A stretch of 32,569 nucleotides of DNA, from positions 1 to 32,569 of the forward strand of contig JACSRI010000173.1 in the NCBI GenBank assembly GCA_014879845.1, read 5' to 3'. The translations under genes and the position numbers were made by a program. The notes below the pieces were generated by a model. The model was not told where the DNA came from and did no database searches. It worked only from the letters and a program-made list of their open reading frames with translations. This stretch comes from Opitutaceae bacterium. GTDB lineage: Bacteria; Verrucomicrobiota; Verrucomicrobiia; Opitutales; Opitutaceae. The number at the start of each line of letters is the position of its first letter. Position 1 is the first letter of the stretch. Positions 20,366 to 25,330 of the stretch are shown here, piece by piece.

Positions 20366-21883
20366 TCAGGTGAGGTAGAGCAGCTTCGTGGCGAACTCGG
20401 GGTCGCTCGTGAGCTGCACGCCGAGCTTGCGTAGGCCGGCGGCGTCGCCGGGCGTGGGGATGTGCGTGAGGTGCACGTCGCAGCCGCTCAGGTCCTTGAG
20501 TTTATCGATCGCGGTGGCGGCGGCGGGATTCATCGTCGCGCTGATGCTCAGGGCGATGAGCGTCTCCTCGAGGTCGAGGCTCATGACGTTGCGCTTGAGC
20601 ACGTCCTTTTTGAAATGCGCGAGCGAGGTGGTGATGATCGGCGGCAGCAGGTGCATGCTGTCGGGGATGTCGGCGAGCAGCTTGATCGCGTTGAGCACAA
20701 GGCTGGCGGCGGCGTGCATGTGCGGGGAGTTCTTGCCCGTCACGATGCGGCCGTCGCGCAGCTCGATGGCGGCGGCGCAGCAGATGCCGCCGCGGCCCTT
20801 GCCGGCGGCGAGGCCGGCGCGCGCGGCTTCGTGCGCGGGGCGCACGACCCGGCGGTCCTCGGGCGAGAGGCCGTGGGTCTCGAGCAGCAGCTCCACGCGC
20901 TGCACGGTCTCCTTGTCGACCAGGCCCATGGCGTATTCGCAGGCGTAGCTGTAGTAGCGGCGGATGATCTCCTGGCGGCCGGCCTCGCGGCAGGCGGCGT
21001 CGTCGACGATGCCGAAGCCGGCGCGGTTTACCCCCATGTCCGTGGGCGATTTGTAGAACGACGGCTCGCCGGTGATGCGCTCGATGATGCGGCGCAGGAG
21101 GGGGAAAGCTTCGAGGTCGCGGTTGTAGTTCACGGCCTGCTGGCCGTAGGCCTCGAGGTGGAAGTGGTCGATGAGGTTCACGTCGCGCAACTCGGCCGTC
21201 GCCGCCTCGTAGGCGACGTTGACCTCGTGCTTGAGCGGGAGATTCCAGATCGGGAATGTCTCGAACTTCGCGTAGTGGGCCTTCACCCCGCGGCGGTGCT
21301 CATGGTAGAGCTGGCTCAGGCATGTCGCGAGTTTCCCACTACCGGGACCGGGGCCGGTCACGACCACGATCGGGCGATCGGTCTCGATGAATGGGTTGGC
21401 GCCGTAGCCGGCCTCGCTCGCGATCGTGTCGATGTCGGACGGGTAGCCGCGCGTGGCGCGGTGCGTGTAGACGCGGATGCCGCGGCGCTCGAGGCGGTTC
21501 TTGAAGGCCACGGCCGCGGGCTGCTCGTCGAAGCGCGTGATCACCACGGCGCGCACCTCGACGTCCCACTCGCGCAGGTCGTCGATCGTCTTGAGCGTGT
21601 CGGTGTCGTAGGTGATGCCGAAGTCCGCGCGCATCTTCTTCTTCTCGATGTCGCCGGCGTAGATGCAGATCACCACCTCGGCCTGGTCGCGCAGGCGCTG
21701 CAGCAGCCGCATCTTCACGTTCGGGCTGAAGCCCGGCAGCACGCGCGAGGCGTGGTAGTCGAAGAGGAGTTTCCCGCCGAATTCGAGGTAGAGCTTGCTC
21801 GCGAAGCCCTGCACGCGCTCGAGGATGGCCGCGCTCTGCTGCTCAAGGTAGCGTTCGTTGTCGAAACCGGTCCGGGGTGCCAT
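20366..21883 (-). CDS. DUF1846 family protein
   Basis: A 505-residue cytosolic protein matching the length and conserved blocks of the DUF1846 family (Pfam PF08903). The N-terminal start [20 protein letters not shown] contains the family's GFDNEKY-like beginning. A P-loop-like [20 protein letters not shown] at 177-196 and [13 protein letters not shown] at 140-152 are further family blocks, followed by [16 protein letters not shown]-like and [12 protein letters not shown] segments. Biochemical function is not established to my knowledge; the glycine-rich loop suggests nucleotide binding. ATG 21883 is chosen from family N-termini; upstream codons would run into the structured leader. The leader carries one of the window's two related RNA elements, in sense orientation about 90 nt before the start. 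Confidence 0.9.
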
Positions 21884-22261
21884 GGGGAACGTCGACCATT
21901 GCGGACCTGCGCCGCCCCGGGGACAACTGCCGAGTGCGTGGCACGCGGGCCTGGCCGCGAAGCGACTCTCGGAAAACACGAGACCCGGACACCTCCCCAG
22001 GTGTCCGGGCCGTGATTTCCTGTTGAACCCTGTTTTACCCAATTACCCCTGCTGCGCAGGGCGTGAGGGGAATGTGGCCCGGCGCCCTGCGTGGGGCAAG
22101 CGAACCCGTCCAAGCTTACAGAGTCGTAATCCGCAGGTAAGTTTTCCCCGGGGCGATCCTTTCCGCGCAACGAAGCGACAGGTCCGGCGGACGCGCATCG
22201 GGTGTCGCGTCCGGGTTTTCTCCATCCGGTATTTGATCGGACCCGACGTCTCTCGCGCGTC
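21884..22261. other. Leader region of the DUF1846 gene
   Basis: 378 bp without a supported gene, between the glycosidase stop and the DUF1846 start on the same strand. The middle (21971-22091) holds the structured RNA element annotated separately. The rest shows no further clear signal. Confidence 0.55.
21971..22091 (-). ncRNA. Candidate structured leader RNA, copy 2 (upstream of DUF1846)
   Basis: Read on the minus strand, the elements are in order: (i) stem CGCAGGGCG/CGCCCTGCG (22083-22091 with 22055-22063, 9 bp); (ii) an overlapping short hairpin CCCTGC-GCA-GCAGGG (22061 down to 22047) that is mutually exclusive with (i); (iii) TTGGGTAAAACAG (22042 down to 22030); (iv) a long hairpin with CCCGGACACCT/AGGTGTCCGGG core (21984-22009) and outer arms 21971-21980/22011-22020 pairing at 9 of 10 positions. 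The layout matches the plus-strand element at 24767-24860. It ends about 90 nt before the DUF1846 ATG and points towards it. A run of T (TGTTTT) inside the last outer arm could serve as a weak terminator tract. The class is unknown, and it could also simply be a terminator of the upstream glycosidase. Confidence 0.55.
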
Positions 22262-23785
22262 TCACCTGGGGACTTCGGTCAGGTAGACAGGTGTGATGCC
22301 GACGGGCACGGTGAGCGTTCCGGCGGTGATCGTGACCATCGGCGTCTCGCCGAGCGCGTCGAGCGCCTCGGCCTTGTCCCATGTCGTGGGGAGGGTGAAC
22401 GTGACGGCGGGCGCATCCTCGCCGCTGAAACGATCTCGGCGCTCCCACACGACCAGCGCAAGGCCGCGGGATCCGCGATCCACCTCGAAGAGCACGATCG
22501 AGGGATGCTCCGGGACGGGAGTGCGCCTCACGGACGTGACACCGTCCAGGACGGAAACCATGCGCCGATACGCGGCGGCGGTGATCGTGGGCTTCCACGT
22601 GCCGTCGCCGTTCTCCACGAGGCTGAACTTGGCGAACATCAGCCCCATGATGTCGTCGCGTTCATTGGTGGCGGGTGAGTATTGCCAGTACAACGACCGC
22701 CGCACGCCGGCTGCGAGCGCGAAGACGTTCTGCATGACGAGCGTGCGCGACTGGATACGGCGATATTTCGCCTCCAGTTCCGGCGGACAGCCCCTCATGA
22801 ACATCTGCGTCTGCGGCGCAAGCGTCGCCATCGTGTCGTAGAGGCGGGCGATGTCCTGGCCGATGCTCGGGTCGACCACGGCATTGCCGTGATCGTCAGG
22901 CTTGACCGCCCACCGCGTGACGAGGTCCAGGTATTTGTAGTTTTCCGGGAACTCGAAGAAGCTCGGTCCGCCGTATTCGCCGCCGAGGATCGGCTTTTCG
23001 CAGCCGTGCGCGCGCATGCGCTCGCGGATGTATTCGACGCGCGGCGCGATCAGCTCCGGGTCGAGGTAGAGCCGGAGATCGAAGACATCGAAGGCATCCG
23101 GGGCCTCGGCCATGACGTGCTCGAAGAATCCGAGCGCGGCATCCTGGTGCGGTATCGGCGGGATCGGATCGCCGGCCGGAGTCTTCATGCCGGGAGGCAC
23201 GAAGATCCCGTCGCAGCCGCCGAGCACGACGAGGGCCTCCGGGTCCGCCGCCTTGACCGCACGGTGAAAGATGCGGAGTTGCTCAACGAACTTCTCCTTG
23301 CCGCCCGACCAGAACGCGGGATTGGTCGGCTCGGCGTCGTTGCCCCAGTAGCGCACACGGCCGCGATGGCGGCGCACGGTCTCGTAGACGAAACGGTAGT
23401 AGTCCTCCGGATCCTTGGCCGGCGCCGCCGGCATGAGCATGGCCGGGACCTGCGTGGCCCACATCGACGCCGCGTAGAGCGTGATGAACCCTTCGTCCGG
23501 GCTGCGCAGTTCATTCACGTAGGTATCCAGCACCGACCAGTCAAACCGACCCTTCTGCGGCTCGAGCTGGTGCCAGAAGAGGATCACCCGGCTGAAGCCC
23601 GCGCCGTAGTCGCGCACGGCCGGCAGGTACGGGCGAGTCGTGGTACCCAGATGTCCATACAGATAGCCCCAGTCGATGCCGAAGGGTGATGGCTCGGCGC
23701 GATCGGGTGCGCCGAGCGCGAGTCGTGATGAGGTGAAGAGCGCGAGGATGGCGCCCAGCGTGGCGATGTGACGCAAGGACTTCAT
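22262..23785 (-). CDS. Secreted clan GH-A glycoside hydrolase-like protein
   Basis: A 507-residue exported protein. Signal peptide at residues 1-25 (MKSLRHIATL..., cleavage near ALG-A). The remainder looks like a TIM-barrel glycosidase of clan GH-A, resembling GH39-type proteins. It has an early barrel segment FSRVILFWHQLEPQKGRFDWSVLD (64-87), a likely acid/base E152 in YWGNDAEPTNPAFW, and a likely nucleophile E270 in ILGGEYGGPSFFEFPE. A small beta domain follows, rich in strand-like segments (SIVLFEVDRGSRGLALVVWE). The family and substrate are not certain. The ATG overlaps the stop of the tetR gene by 4 nt (ATGA), so it is translated from the tetR mRNA and should be controlled by that repressor. 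Confidence 0.78.
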   Translation of the reverse strand: MKSLRHIATLGAILALFTSSRLALGAPDRAEPSPFGIDWGYLYGHLGTTTRPYLPAVRDYGAGFSRVILFWHQLEPQKGRFDWSVLDTYVNELRSPDEGFITLYAASMWATQVPAMLMPAAPAKDPEDYYRFVYETVRRHRGRVRYWGNDAEPTNPAFWSGGKEKFVEQLRIFHRAVKAADPEALVVLGGCDGIFVPPGMKTPAGDPIPPIPHQDAALGFFEHVMAEAPDAFDVFDLRLYLDPELIAPRVEYIRERMRAHGCEKPILGGEYGGPSFFEFPENYKYLDLVTRWAVKPDDHGNAVVDPSIGQDIARLYDTMATLAPQTQMFMRGCPPELEAKYRRIQSRTLVMQNVFALAAGVRRSLYWQYSPATNERDDIMGLMFAKFSLVENGDGTWKPTITAAAYRRMVSVLDGVTSVRRTPVPEHPSIVLFEVDRGSRGLALVVWERRDRFSGEDAPAVTFTLPTTWDKAEALDALGETPMVTITAGTLTVPVGITPVYLTEVPR

Positions 23786-24414
23786 GATGTCTTGGCCTTT
23801 CGAATCGTGCTCGTGCGTGTGTCTTTCCGGGTGGCGAGGTCGAAGGTGGTCACCAGCTCGGTGGCGTAGTCGCTGAGGGACAGGCTCGGGTCGGCGACCC
23901 ACTGGCTCAGCGCCCCGTTCACGGCCTGGAGGATCGTCGCCGCCATGGGTCGGACCGAGAAGGAGCGGAACTCGCCGCGCGCCTGCCCGTCTTCGAGGAT
24001 GGTGGTGATCGCCGCGAGCGCGTCGTTCTCGGCCTTGGTGCGGAGGTGAAACTCGCCGCGCCGGTTGCGGTGGTTGACCAGGATGTAGGACACGGCGAGC
24101 AGGTGTGCGCGGTGCTGCTCCAGGAACAGGAGCTGCGACTGGATGAACGCCCGGAGGCGACCGCGCGCCTCCGGCTCCGCGAGGAGACGCGGCACGATGA
24201 ACTCGCTCAACTCGCGGAGAATCTCGTTCACGGCCATCTCCACGAGCGCGTCCTTGTTTCGAAAGTGATACAGGACCGCTGCCTTGCTGATGCCCGCCCG
24301 TCGCGCGACGCTGGCGAGCGAGGCGCCGGCGTAGCCCTCCTCGGCCACGCTGGTGATCGCGCACGCGATGAGCTGGCGATGACGCGCCTGCTCGATGAAC
24401 GAAGGGCCTGGCAT
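23782..24414 (-). CDS. TetR-family transcriptional repressor
   Basis: A 210-residue regulator. The N-terminal helix-turn-helix domain is at about residues 10-58 (ITSVAEEGYAGASLASVARRAGISKAAVLYHFRNKDALVEMAV), typical of TetR proteins. The C-terminal domain (about 70-200) is all-helical and would bind the ligand and dimerise. It somewhat resembles the BetI-like subgroup, which is weak evidence. ATG 24414 is preferred because the promoter predicted at 24443-24473 places transcription start near 24436; ATG 24438 (8 residues longer) would require a leaderless mRNA. A perfect 16-bp palindrome lies within this promoter, implying autoregulation. The glycosidase gene overlaps its stop by 4 nt, so regulator and enzyme form one operon. 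Confidence 0.88.
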   Translation of the reverse strand: MPGPSFIEQARHRQLIACAITSVAEEGYAGASLASVARRAGISKAAVLYHFRNKDALVEMAVNEILRELSEFIVPRLLAEPEARGRLRAFIQSQLLFLEQHRAHLLAVSYILVNHRNRRGEFHLRTKAENDALAAITTILEDGQARGEFRSFSVRPMAATILQAVNGALSQWVADPSLSLSDYATELVTTFDLATRKDTRTSTIRKAKTS

Positions 24415-24442
24415 TTTCGAGCGCCGCTTGGACCGCATGGAC

Positions 24443-24473
24443 AAAATACTGACCGATCGGTCAGGAATGTCAA
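24443..24473 (-). promoter_or_regulatory. tetR promoter with embedded palindromic operator
   Basis: On the minus strand TTGACA (24473-24468) and TATTTT (24448-24443) are separated by 19 bp, most of which is the perfect palindrome CTGACCGATCGGTCAG (24449-24464). An operator between -35 and -10 is a classical TetR autorepression layout. The 19-bp spacer is long, so MerR-like or weak basal activity is possible. Confidence 0.75.
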
Positions 24474-24766
24474 TCGTCTTGAACCGGCGCGGGCCGAGGT
24501 CTCCAGGCCATAGACCGCGGGAGCGGAGGACGCGCGCGCCCACGGCCAAGGCTCCCGCTGCCCGCATGTTTCGAGCGGTCGTGGCCCGGGTGCGTGCCCC
24601 TGAGGGCCGCGAACGCCAGACCCGCACACTGGCGTCAACGTGGCGCGCGTGGGGCAGGTGGAGCAGCGCGTTGGCTGCGAGGTGAGGCACCGTGGTGCGC
24701 CCTGGGAACGCAGTCGGGCGAGCGCGATTTTGCGCAGATGCCGGGGTTGTCAGACTTGGCACGGAA

Positions 24767-24860
24767 GCCGCTAAGGAAAGCATGTCCCGCTTAGCGGGAC
24801 TTGGGGTAACACAGAAAACTATGGCCCGGACGCTTAGGGGTAGGCGTCCGGGCCTTCTGT
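24767..24860 (+). ncRNA. Candidate structured leader RNA, copy 1 (upstream of cytochrome c)
   Basis: Elements in order: (i) stem CCGCTAAG (24768-24775) with CTTAGCGG (24790-24797); (ii) a competing hairpin GTCCCGC-TTA-GCGGGAC (24784-24800) that shares bases with (i); (iii) the box TTGGGGTAACACAG (24801-24814); (iv) a long hairpin GGCCCGGACGC (24823-24833) with GCGTCCGGGCC (24844-24854), loop TTAGGGGTAG, flanked by ACAGAA (24811-24816) pairing with TTCTGT (24855-24860). The same order and the core of (iii) and (iv) recur at 21971-22091 on the other strand. The outer pairs of (iv) differ in sequence yet still pair in both copies. It ends 134 nt before the cytochrome c ATG. A cis-regulatory or riboswitch-like role is inferred; no known class was recognised. 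Confidence 0.6.
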
Positions 24861-24994: not shown

Positions 24995-25330
24995 ATGACA
25001 CGATCTCTTTTGCTCTTCGCCCTAGTCGCCGCGCTCGGTTGCGCGAGTGTCTCGCACGCCGCCGATGCGACCACCAACTGGAAGGCGCAGTGCGCGAAGT
25101 GCCACGCGTCCGACGGCTCGGGCAAGACCAGCATGGGCGCACGTCTCGCCATCAAGGACTACACAGTCGCCGCCTCACTTGCCGACATGACGGATGCGCA
25201 GCTCACCGAGGCCATCGCCAGCGGCGTGAAAGTCGAAGGCAAGTCGGTCATGCCCGCCTACGCGGCCAAGCTCACCGCCGAGGAGATCGCCGAGCTCGTT
25301 GCGCACATCCGCGCGATGGCGAAGTCGTAG
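24995..25330 (+). CDS. Small monohaem class I cytochrome c
   Basis: A 111-residue periplasmic electron carrier. Signal peptide about 1-22 (MTRSLLLFALVAALGCASVS, cleavage after SHA); C16 within it is not a good lipobox. Haem is attached at C33-AKC-H37, and the distal ligand is M86 in GKSVMPAYAAKLT, the usual class I pattern. The C-terminal helix EEIAELVAHIRAMAK is typical. The start is supported by a purine-rich site GGAAAGG about 6-12 nt upstream. The gene stands alone, so its redox partners are not evident; a cytochrome b561-type protein is encoded about 3.3 kb away. Its leader carries the structured RNA candidate. Confidence 0.92.
   Translation: MTRSLLLFALVAALGCASVSHAADATTNWKAQCAKCHASDGSGKTSMGARLAIKDYTVAASLADMTDAQLTEAIASGVKVEGKSVMPAYAAKLTAEEIAELVAHIRAMAKS

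Follow-up and report, generated by a model that had tools for sequence, protein, structure and literature searches.

A structured RNA family of Opitutales whose best-conserved copies look like free-standing small RNA genes

Introduction

Protein-sequestering RNAs of the CsrB/RsmZ type repeat a short motif, ANGGA, in loops and single strands, and sX13, a small RNA (sRNA) of Xanthomonadaceae, acts in trans through C-rich loops. The tip of a terminator hairpin is normally little constrained. The RNA described here, which we found in the bacterial order Opitutales, is similar to the CsrB/RsmZ type in repeating a short motif in loops and single strands, but its motif is GGGGUA and CsrA does not track its occurrence.

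A further described system is FopS, a paralogous sRNA family of Bacteroides thetaiotaomicron that is bound by the RRM protein RbpB. As reported by its authors, the FopS RNAs are ~65-70 nt long and consist of a single-stranded 5' seed stretch followed by a terminator, the related paralogues GibS and FopS have different promoters, and the FopS structure was deposited in Rfam (PMC11697453). The Opitutales RNA is likewise a multicopy family of paralogues with an intrinsic-terminator-like hairpin at the end, a host with RRM proteins and promoter-like sequences that differ between paralogues; unlike FopS as described there, it forms two hairpins, and the tip of its terminator hairpin hardly varies. 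It also differs in that the copies searched match no Rfam family and that its protein and target are candidates only. For the PVC group as a whole, the table of one review contains 8 sRNAs (PMC9029176), and our literature search found no description of this RNA and no sRNA study of Opitutales. The family adds a strongly covarying RNA that lacks an Rfam entry to an order for which the search listed no sRNA study.

Two related elements in one contig

The window analysed (32,569 nt, the whole of the stretch taken from contig JACSRI010000173.1 of an Opitutaceae bacterium) contains two homologous structured elements, at 24785-24860 on the plus strand and 21976-22061 on the minus strand, as the initial annotation had proposed. 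They are paralogues of one structured RNA of ~100 nt that is absent from the Rfam catalogue. Copy 1, a scattered paralogue (class C), lies between a divergent TetR-family regulator gene (23782-24438, minus strand; PF00440) and a small cytochrome c gene (24995-25330, plus strand; PF13442, PF00034). In its minimum free energy fold, hairpin 1 (GTCCCGC-TTA-GCGGGAC, 24784-24800, plus strand) is followed by the linker (TTGGGGTAACACAGAAAAC, 24801-24819, plus strand), which carries the first G4 motif, is conserved across the family and includes the box TTGGGGTAACACAG (24801-24814, plus strand), and then by hairpin 2, a terminator-type stem of the form GGCCCGGACGCTTA-GGGG-TAGGCGTCCGGGCC (24823-24854, plus strand, with the GGGG loop at 24837-24840). 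Copy 2 is a divergent member upstream of a DUF1846 gene (20366-21883, minus strand; PF08903, PF20921) and has the same order on the minus strand: hairpin 1 (CCCTGC-GCA-GCAGGG, 22061-22047), the box TTGGGTAAAACAG (22042-22030), and a GGGG-loop hairpin 2 with the tail TCGTGTTTTC (21982-22011), located by folding and by a terminator scan. The distances first given to the downstream genes are correct: 134 nt separate copy 1 from the start of the cytochrome c gene (24995), and 92 nt separate copy 2 from that of the DUF1846 gene (21883).

For both copies the folding energy was far below that of shuffled sequences (z -5.09 for copy 1 and -4.16 for copy 2). Model R1 was made from three genomic copies, with copy 1 among them and copy 2 excluded. 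It nevertheless recovered copy 2 with a score of 38.5 bits (E 2.7e-7), which only copy 1 exceeded within the window. Model R2, which includes copy 2, scored it at 44.3 bits; copy 1, a member of both models, reached 105.7 bits with R1 and 91.7 bits with R2.

The initial annotation had also described an upstream stem competing with hairpin 1, and the outcome differs between the copies. At copy 2 the upstream competitor is strong: the probability of hairpin 1 fell from 0.98 with 20 nt of upstream sequence to 0.0 with 60 nt. At copy 1, CCGCTAAG (24768-24775, plus strand) can pair with CTTAGCGG (24790-24797), but this stem, at -12.2 kcal/mol, is weaker than the optimal structure of the same 40-nt segment, in which hairpin 1 is formed (-15.5 kcal/mol). 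Its CCGCTAA was found up to 80 nt upstream in 2 of 106 copies, both from this genome, so the competitor is no family feature and switching through it was rejected.

A covarying family of Opitutales

Rfam 15 gave no match at gathering score in the window and none up to E 5 in nine loci with strong copies, riboswitch aptamer classes in Rfam included, which bears out the earlier failure to assign the element to a known class. Two Rfam matches near the window copies were both far below gathering score. Searches of related Opitutaceae genomes with the covariance model produced the further covarying copies that a functional RNA should have: all 37 same-family genomes had a match (E up to 0.1), with 1-6 strong copies per genome (E up to 1e-5). 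Across the order, 134 of 223 genomes matched (E up to 0.001), and in a sample of 288 Verrucomicrobiota genomes all 42 that matched belonged to Opitutales. The neighbour and promoter counts below refer to 106 copies, namely 105 from the same-family search together with copy 2; the weaker matches of that search and those on the opposite strand did not enter them.

Each family member is built from hairpin 1, a linker with GGGGUAA and a terminator-type hairpin 2, whose tip UAGGGGUA is nearly constant while its stem covaries. TAGGGGTA of hairpin 2 is present in 99 of the 106 copies. In alignment A6, comprising the 100 copies that reach E 1e-4 and used to build R2, 24 of 26 base pairs showed changes on both sides and 94.2% of cells were paired, versus 42.6-49.9% when the pairing was slid. 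Alignment A7, restricted to other families, gave the same 24 of 26 pairs and 90.7% paired versus 41.7-54.6%; among its 39 matches one row (L284 1836-1912, plus strand) is the opposite-strand shadow of another, and five loci (L135, L137, L139, L143 and L144) also have rows in A6. The view of the element as an unclassified, covarying structured RNA is well supported by these alignments. The covariation first noticed in the outer arms was a less fortunate example: the family does covary, but of all its helices the outer arms preserve pairing least, in 68.7 and 85.1% of cells, compared with 96.6 and 98.9% for the two hairpins. Helix 1, with 96.6% of cells paired, had both-side changes in all six of its pairs.

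We considered whether the element could have spread as DNA, in the form of a REP or MITE-like palindromic mobile repeat. The 1-6 strong copies per genome are dispersed or in tandem, and one 16-nt inverted repeat flanks copy 2, as such a repeat might leave. On the other hand, copy number is low, two loci are syntenic across many genera, the stems change compensatorily on both sides while linker and tip stay nearly fixed, and promoter-like sequence and a U-run stand at set positions, which together make a mobile repeat highly improbable. A narrow test of phage origin, with one exact 19-nt pattern against the viral_contigs set, returned no match. A small ORF running through ATGGCG and the loop was rejected by eye, with no conserved start or frame among the copies listed, and mimicry of a tRNA D-arm by the tip was rejected because AGGGGTA occurs in none of seven tRNAs (two 400-kb samples).

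Gene neighbourhood and orientation

With a crude ORF caller, which overlooked the DAHP synthase gene in L087 and L133, 102 of the 106 copies were intergenic. Two groups recur at syntenic loci across many genera. Class A adjoins a DAHP synthase gene and comprises 33 of the 34 copies of two neighbour groups, G023:C13 being omitted for having 12 bases of upstream sequence. Class B mostly precedes a PhoH/PIN gene and has 22 copies: 14 with that gene next, 7 sharing the upstream neighbour and one (G018:C37) assigned by sequence likeness. A contig-edge copy of the window's own genome (G000:C15) was left out. The gene names rest on a Pfam scan of one member of each group together with blastp clustering. 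Apart from the genes of these two groups, no gene family recurs as downstream neighbour at this scale, and the neighbours of the window copies (DUF1846, cytochrome c, TetR and an unclassified 507-aa protein) stand beside no other copy among the loci compared.

The initial annotation had read the copies as switching leaders. A cis-acting attenuator or riboswitch of this kind would end the next gene's transcription at hairpin 2 unless a ligand or protein acted on hairpin 1 and the linker. Several observations fit it: DAHP synthase is present in 30 of 100 loci and is, by clustering, the next same-strand gene in 28 (the caller itself scored the DAHP group as 25 same strand, 1 opposite and 2 flagged inside an ORF), so that a leader would also suit this group; class B has 15 next genes on the same strand and 7 opposite; both window copies precede genes at short distance; and hairpin 1 of this genome's class A copy is followed by T-rich sequence. 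Outside the DAHP group and class B, however, the crude caller placed the next gene on the same strand 23 times and on the opposite strand 29 times; two of the opposite calls are caller errors, which gives ~25 same and ~27 opposite among 52 scorable copies, with no preferred strand. The consistent orientation to a downstream gene that marks a cis-leader was therefore not found. Moreover, in G002 and G005, class-A-type copies have no DAHP synthase within their 3-kb flanks and retain TTGAC and the U-run, and two complete units of G005 face an oppositely oriented gene. Taken with the rarity of the competing stem of copy 1 (2 of 106 copies), the lack of a recurring downstream gene beyond the two groups and the promoter- and terminator-like sequence in both syntenic groups, this led us to reject a riboswitch or leader as the general explanation, and we regard it as unlikely. 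The window copies themselves may still be leaders.

Promoter-like and terminator-like sequence

The patterns scored here were defined after the sequences had been inspected. TTGAC was found within 95 nt upstream of all 33 class A copies, versus 90 of 1820 control windows, and its distance to hairpin 1 is 50-53 nt in 32 of them and 60 nt in the remaining one; TTGA combined with a -10-like box was present in 21 of 33 versus 19 of 1820. In class B, an ECF-sigma-like pattern was present in 17 of 22 copies versus 57 of 1232 controls (16 of 21 when G018:C37 is removed, and 11 of 14 among the copies directly followed by the PhoH/PIN gene). Among the 50 scorable copies outside both classes, TTGAC occurred in 13 and the ECF-like pattern in 5. 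A strict scan found no sigma-70-like site near the window copies, and it likewise detected none at this genome's class A copy.

A U-run followed hairpin 2 in 32 of 33 class A copies, 22 of 22 class B copies and 9 of 10 from other families. Of 41 further copies of the family, 29 had one, 9 fell short and in 3 the script did not find hairpin 2. The family thus shows the GC-rich hairpin and U-run of an intrinsically terminated, trans-encoded sRNA; the window copies, with 5 T in their best 8, are below the threshold of 6 of 8, and a looser scan (at least 5 T) lists hairpin 2 of both as terminator-like.

The best-conserved copies look less like riboswitch leaders than like free-standing small RNA genes, each with a putative promoter and terminator of its own. 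We consider it likely, judging from sequence, that the element represents a family of independently transcribed, paralogous, trans-acting sRNAs of Opitutales, an order almost devoid of Hfq. A typical gene would have its own promoter and, from the position of the -35-like box, a start ~16 nt before hairpin 1. The predicted transcript would run through hairpin 1 and the linker with GGGGUAA and an A-rich stretch and end at hairpin 2, which would serve as intrinsic terminator and has a GGGG-bearing tip that ranks with the best-conserved parts. The class A paralogue at the DAHP-synthase locus would use a housekeeping-type promoter and the class B paralogue, mostly at the PhoH/PIN locus, an ECF-sigma-like one, so that related RNAs would be made under different conditions. 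The near-invariant terminator tip and the sigma-70-like versus ECF-like promoters of the paralogues lend themselves to simple direct tests. The window copies are atypical members of this family, scattered paralogues in which no promoter could be recognised and the U-runs are weak. They may belong to leaders, be expressed in some other way or be decaying.

Candidate partners

Action in trans appears most probable, with the two G4 motifs presented to a partner that could be either a dedicated protein that binds RNA or C-rich stretches within a limited number of mRNAs. An Hfq match was present in 1 of the 223 genomes of the order and none in the window's own genome, and Hfq was rejected as general partner; the RNA may accordingly offer a route to the chaperone or mechanism that serves instead. 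Broad antisense action was also rejected: complements of the linker and loop at translation starts numbered 60 versus 57.9 expected and 11 versus 16.4 in G004 (311 genes), and 21 versus 33.8 and 13 versus 10.7 in G033 (263 genes), with no overall enrichment in these two 400-kb samples, a small target set being outside the reach of the test.

The protein option was also weighed as an explanation in its own right. In this view an RNA-binding protein, perhaps one of the RRM proteins that are common in the order, would be recruited by the G4 tips, and the RNA would function as a sponge or scaffold in the way that CsrB-type RNAs do with CsrA. It is consistent with the GGGGT motif occurring twice in 97 of the 106 copies (within a stretch that begins 30 nt upstream and ends with the match), and, by reading of the copies listed, the hairpin 1 loop of one family (G047) carries AGGGGUA as well. 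RRM proteins were found in 124 of 134 RNA-positive versus 46 of 89 RNA-negative genomes, raw counts that may follow genome size and ancestry. Against it, no RRM match was obtained in 10 of the 134 RNA-positive genomes, and completeness is at least 95% for four of these ten (G026, G045, G047 and G168). CsrA itself was rejected as general partner, since it does not track the RNA (19 of 134 RNA-positive versus 27 of 89 RNA-negative genomes, the window's own genome being CsrA-positive). We hold this reading to be a credible one, of somewhat less than even probability.

A bolder and rather doubtful extension of the trans-acting sRNA family is an order-wide RNA regulon hub working without Hfq. Paralogues under one housekeeping-type promoter and one ECF-type stress sigma factor would show GGGG tips on the terminator hairpin itself, to be read by a dedicated protein or in an RNA-RNA contact of a kind undescribed for sRNAs, and scattered leader copies such as those of the window would form the regulated end of the system.

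A last observation concerns sX13 (RF02232), which gave a non-significant match (15.9 bits, E 7.7, far below its gathering score of 50) to the strand opposite copy 1 hairpin 2; the Opitutales RNA differs from it in having G-rich loops.

Detection and distribution of the RNA

The two elements described in the initial annotation, ahead of the cytochrome c gene (copy 1, window 24785-24860, plus strand) and the DUF1846 gene (copy 2, window 21976-22061, minus strand), were confirmed in the window. The Infernal/Rfam check that it had proposed returned no match at gathering score in the window, with two matches around the copies both far below that score, and none up to E 5 in nine loci bearing strong relatives of the RNA. 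Our literature search found no paper describing this RNA.

Pattern and DNA searches located two close extra copies in the source genome (G000, contigs C80 and C148). From these and copy 1 we built a covariance model (R1), which recovered copy 2, not included in the model, at E 2.7e-7 in a search of the window. Further copies in related genomes, with the covarying pairing expected of a functional RNA, were then found by covariance-model search. At E up to 0.1, R1 had matches in 46 of 57 relatives, the source genome included (37/37 of the same family, 9/20 of other families), part of these matches being weak or opposite-strand shadows; with the cutoff lowered to E 1e-5, each genome of the family held 1-6 copies, 93 in total. 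A second covariance model (R2), made from 100 matches, gave matches at E up to 0.001 in 134 of the 223 genomes of the order Opitutales. In a sample of the phylum, 42 of 288 genomes matched, all 42 belonging to the same order. For an exact 19-nt pattern in a named collection, the matches listed carried the titles Opitutaceae, Opitutae, Opitutales, Ereboglobus, and Cephaloticoccus, as well as less specific Verrucomicrobia and bacterium titles and one record titled Parcubacteria.

Structure and covariation

Across the family, hairpin 1, with a mostly 3-nt loop, is followed by a linker containing GGGGUAA and an A-rich stretch and by hairpin 2, which has about 14 pairs and the tip UAGGGGUA. Of 106 copies, 99 contain TAGGGGTA and 97 have the GGGGT motif twice. 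In an alignment of 100 copies (A6), 24 of 26 pairs showed changes on both sides and 94.2% of cells were paired, with a covariation score of 0.409; shuffles scored 0.157, and slid controls no more than 0.090. An alignment of 39 matches with rows from other families only (A7; five loci in common with A6, one row a shadow) likewise gave 24/26 pairs, 90.7% of cells paired, and a score of 0.625 versus 0.204 (shuffles) and at most 0.144 (slid). Both alignments were fitted to the covariance model, which biases them in favor of the structure; evidence against model fitting as the cause of the covariation comes from the slid controls and from RNAalifold, which predicted 19 pairs for A6, 18 of them changed on both sides.

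Several loci carry variants. At L139, L138, and L140 of genome G047, TAGGGGTA is also found in the hairpin 1 loop, repeating the hairpin 2 tip. At L045 (2731-2747), TTTTTGGGG comes after hairpin 1, so this RNA holds two successive terminator-like hairpins. A variant with GGGGT(A/T)A..CATGGA ahead of an extra hairpin occurs in G000, G020, and G010 (L046 3001-3064, L095 3001-3066, L070 2395-2459); in L046 and L095, a CGAGAA/TTCTCG closing arm replaces the U-run. Two or three complete units lie on one strand at L296, L297, L289, L284, L290, L279, L060, and L077, mostly within a few hundred bases and 7.7 kb apart at L290.

Genomic loci and promoter-like sequence

According to a crude ORF caller, 102 of 106 copies are intergenic, and two syntenic groups stand out. 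Class A copies lie between a GCV_T-domain gene that is divergent (29 copies, 28 genomes) and a DAHP synthase gene on the same strand (28 genomes by clustering); by tblastn, DAHP synthase is present in 30 of 100 loci. In class B, a PhoH/PIN gene is next in 14 of the 22 copies used, the rest sharing the upstream neighbor, apart from one copy placed by sequence. The Pfam scan covered one member per neighbor gene group. For copies in neither the DAHP group nor class B, the same caller placed the next gene on the same strand in 23 cases and on the opposite strand in 29, about 25 versus 27 after two caller errors were corrected. Homologous proteins lie downstream of a scattered copy at L049 1322-2755 (G000) and L076 1614-2906 (G013); the G000 protein, the one of the two that was scanned, has no Pfam family.

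TTGAC was found upstream of all 33 class A copies compared to 90 of 1820 control windows, starting 50-53 nt ahead of hairpin 1 in 32 of these 33 copies, and TTGA with a -10-like box in 21/33 versus 19/1820. In class B, a GGAAC/GAAAC-type box precedes a CGTC-type box in 17/22 copies (16/21 without one copy assigned by sequence) versus 57/1232 controls. A U-run 3' of hairpin 2 is present in 32/33 class A and 22/22 class B copies. Class-A-type copies of G002 and G005 keep TTGAC and the U-run, with DAHP synthase absent from the fetched flanks. Judged from sequence, the loci, orientation, and promoter-like and U-run features give the copies the anatomy of free-standing sRNA genes.

Mode of action and candidate partners

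The RNA likely acts in trans. Hfq (1/223 genomes of the order) and CsrA (46/223; 19 of 134 RNA-positive) are too rare for either to be a general partner, and both were ruled out as such. RRM proteins are encoded in 124/134 RNA-positive versus 46/89 RNA-negative genomes, a co-occurrence that ancestry and genome reduction could explain. The nearest described system in behavior is FopS/RbpB of Bacteroides, with paralogous sRNAs, a terminator hairpin, and an RRM protein (PMC11697453); membership is not implied. In two 400-kb samples, translation starts showed no enrichment of complements of the linker and loop, which disfavors a broad antisense role and leaves room for a small target set. We assign about the same probability to base pairing with a small number of mRNAs and to binding of a protein.

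Copies in the source genome

Copies 1 and 2 are members of neither class. Elsewhere, the source genome has a class A gene with TTGACC and a T-rich tail (C148:2670-2746) as well as, at a contig edge, a diverged copy next to a PhoH-group gene (C15:8622-8695). A strict scan detected no sigma-70-like site near the window copies, and it missed this class A copy too. In the tails of the window copies, the most T-rich 8 nt hold 5 T versus a threshold of 6, and a looser terminator scan picked up both hairpins 2. None of the genes next to the window copies lies beside another copy in the loci compared. The window copies may sit in leaders, be expressed in some other way, or be paralogues in decay.

Between them lies a minus-strand gene (window 22262-23785) whose 507-aa product gave no Pfam match up to E 1e-5. 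Some way out on either side of copy 2 are the arms of a 16-nt inverted repeat with 94% complementarity (window 21913-21928 and 22140-22155); the repeat may be due to chance or may bound a small inserted unit.
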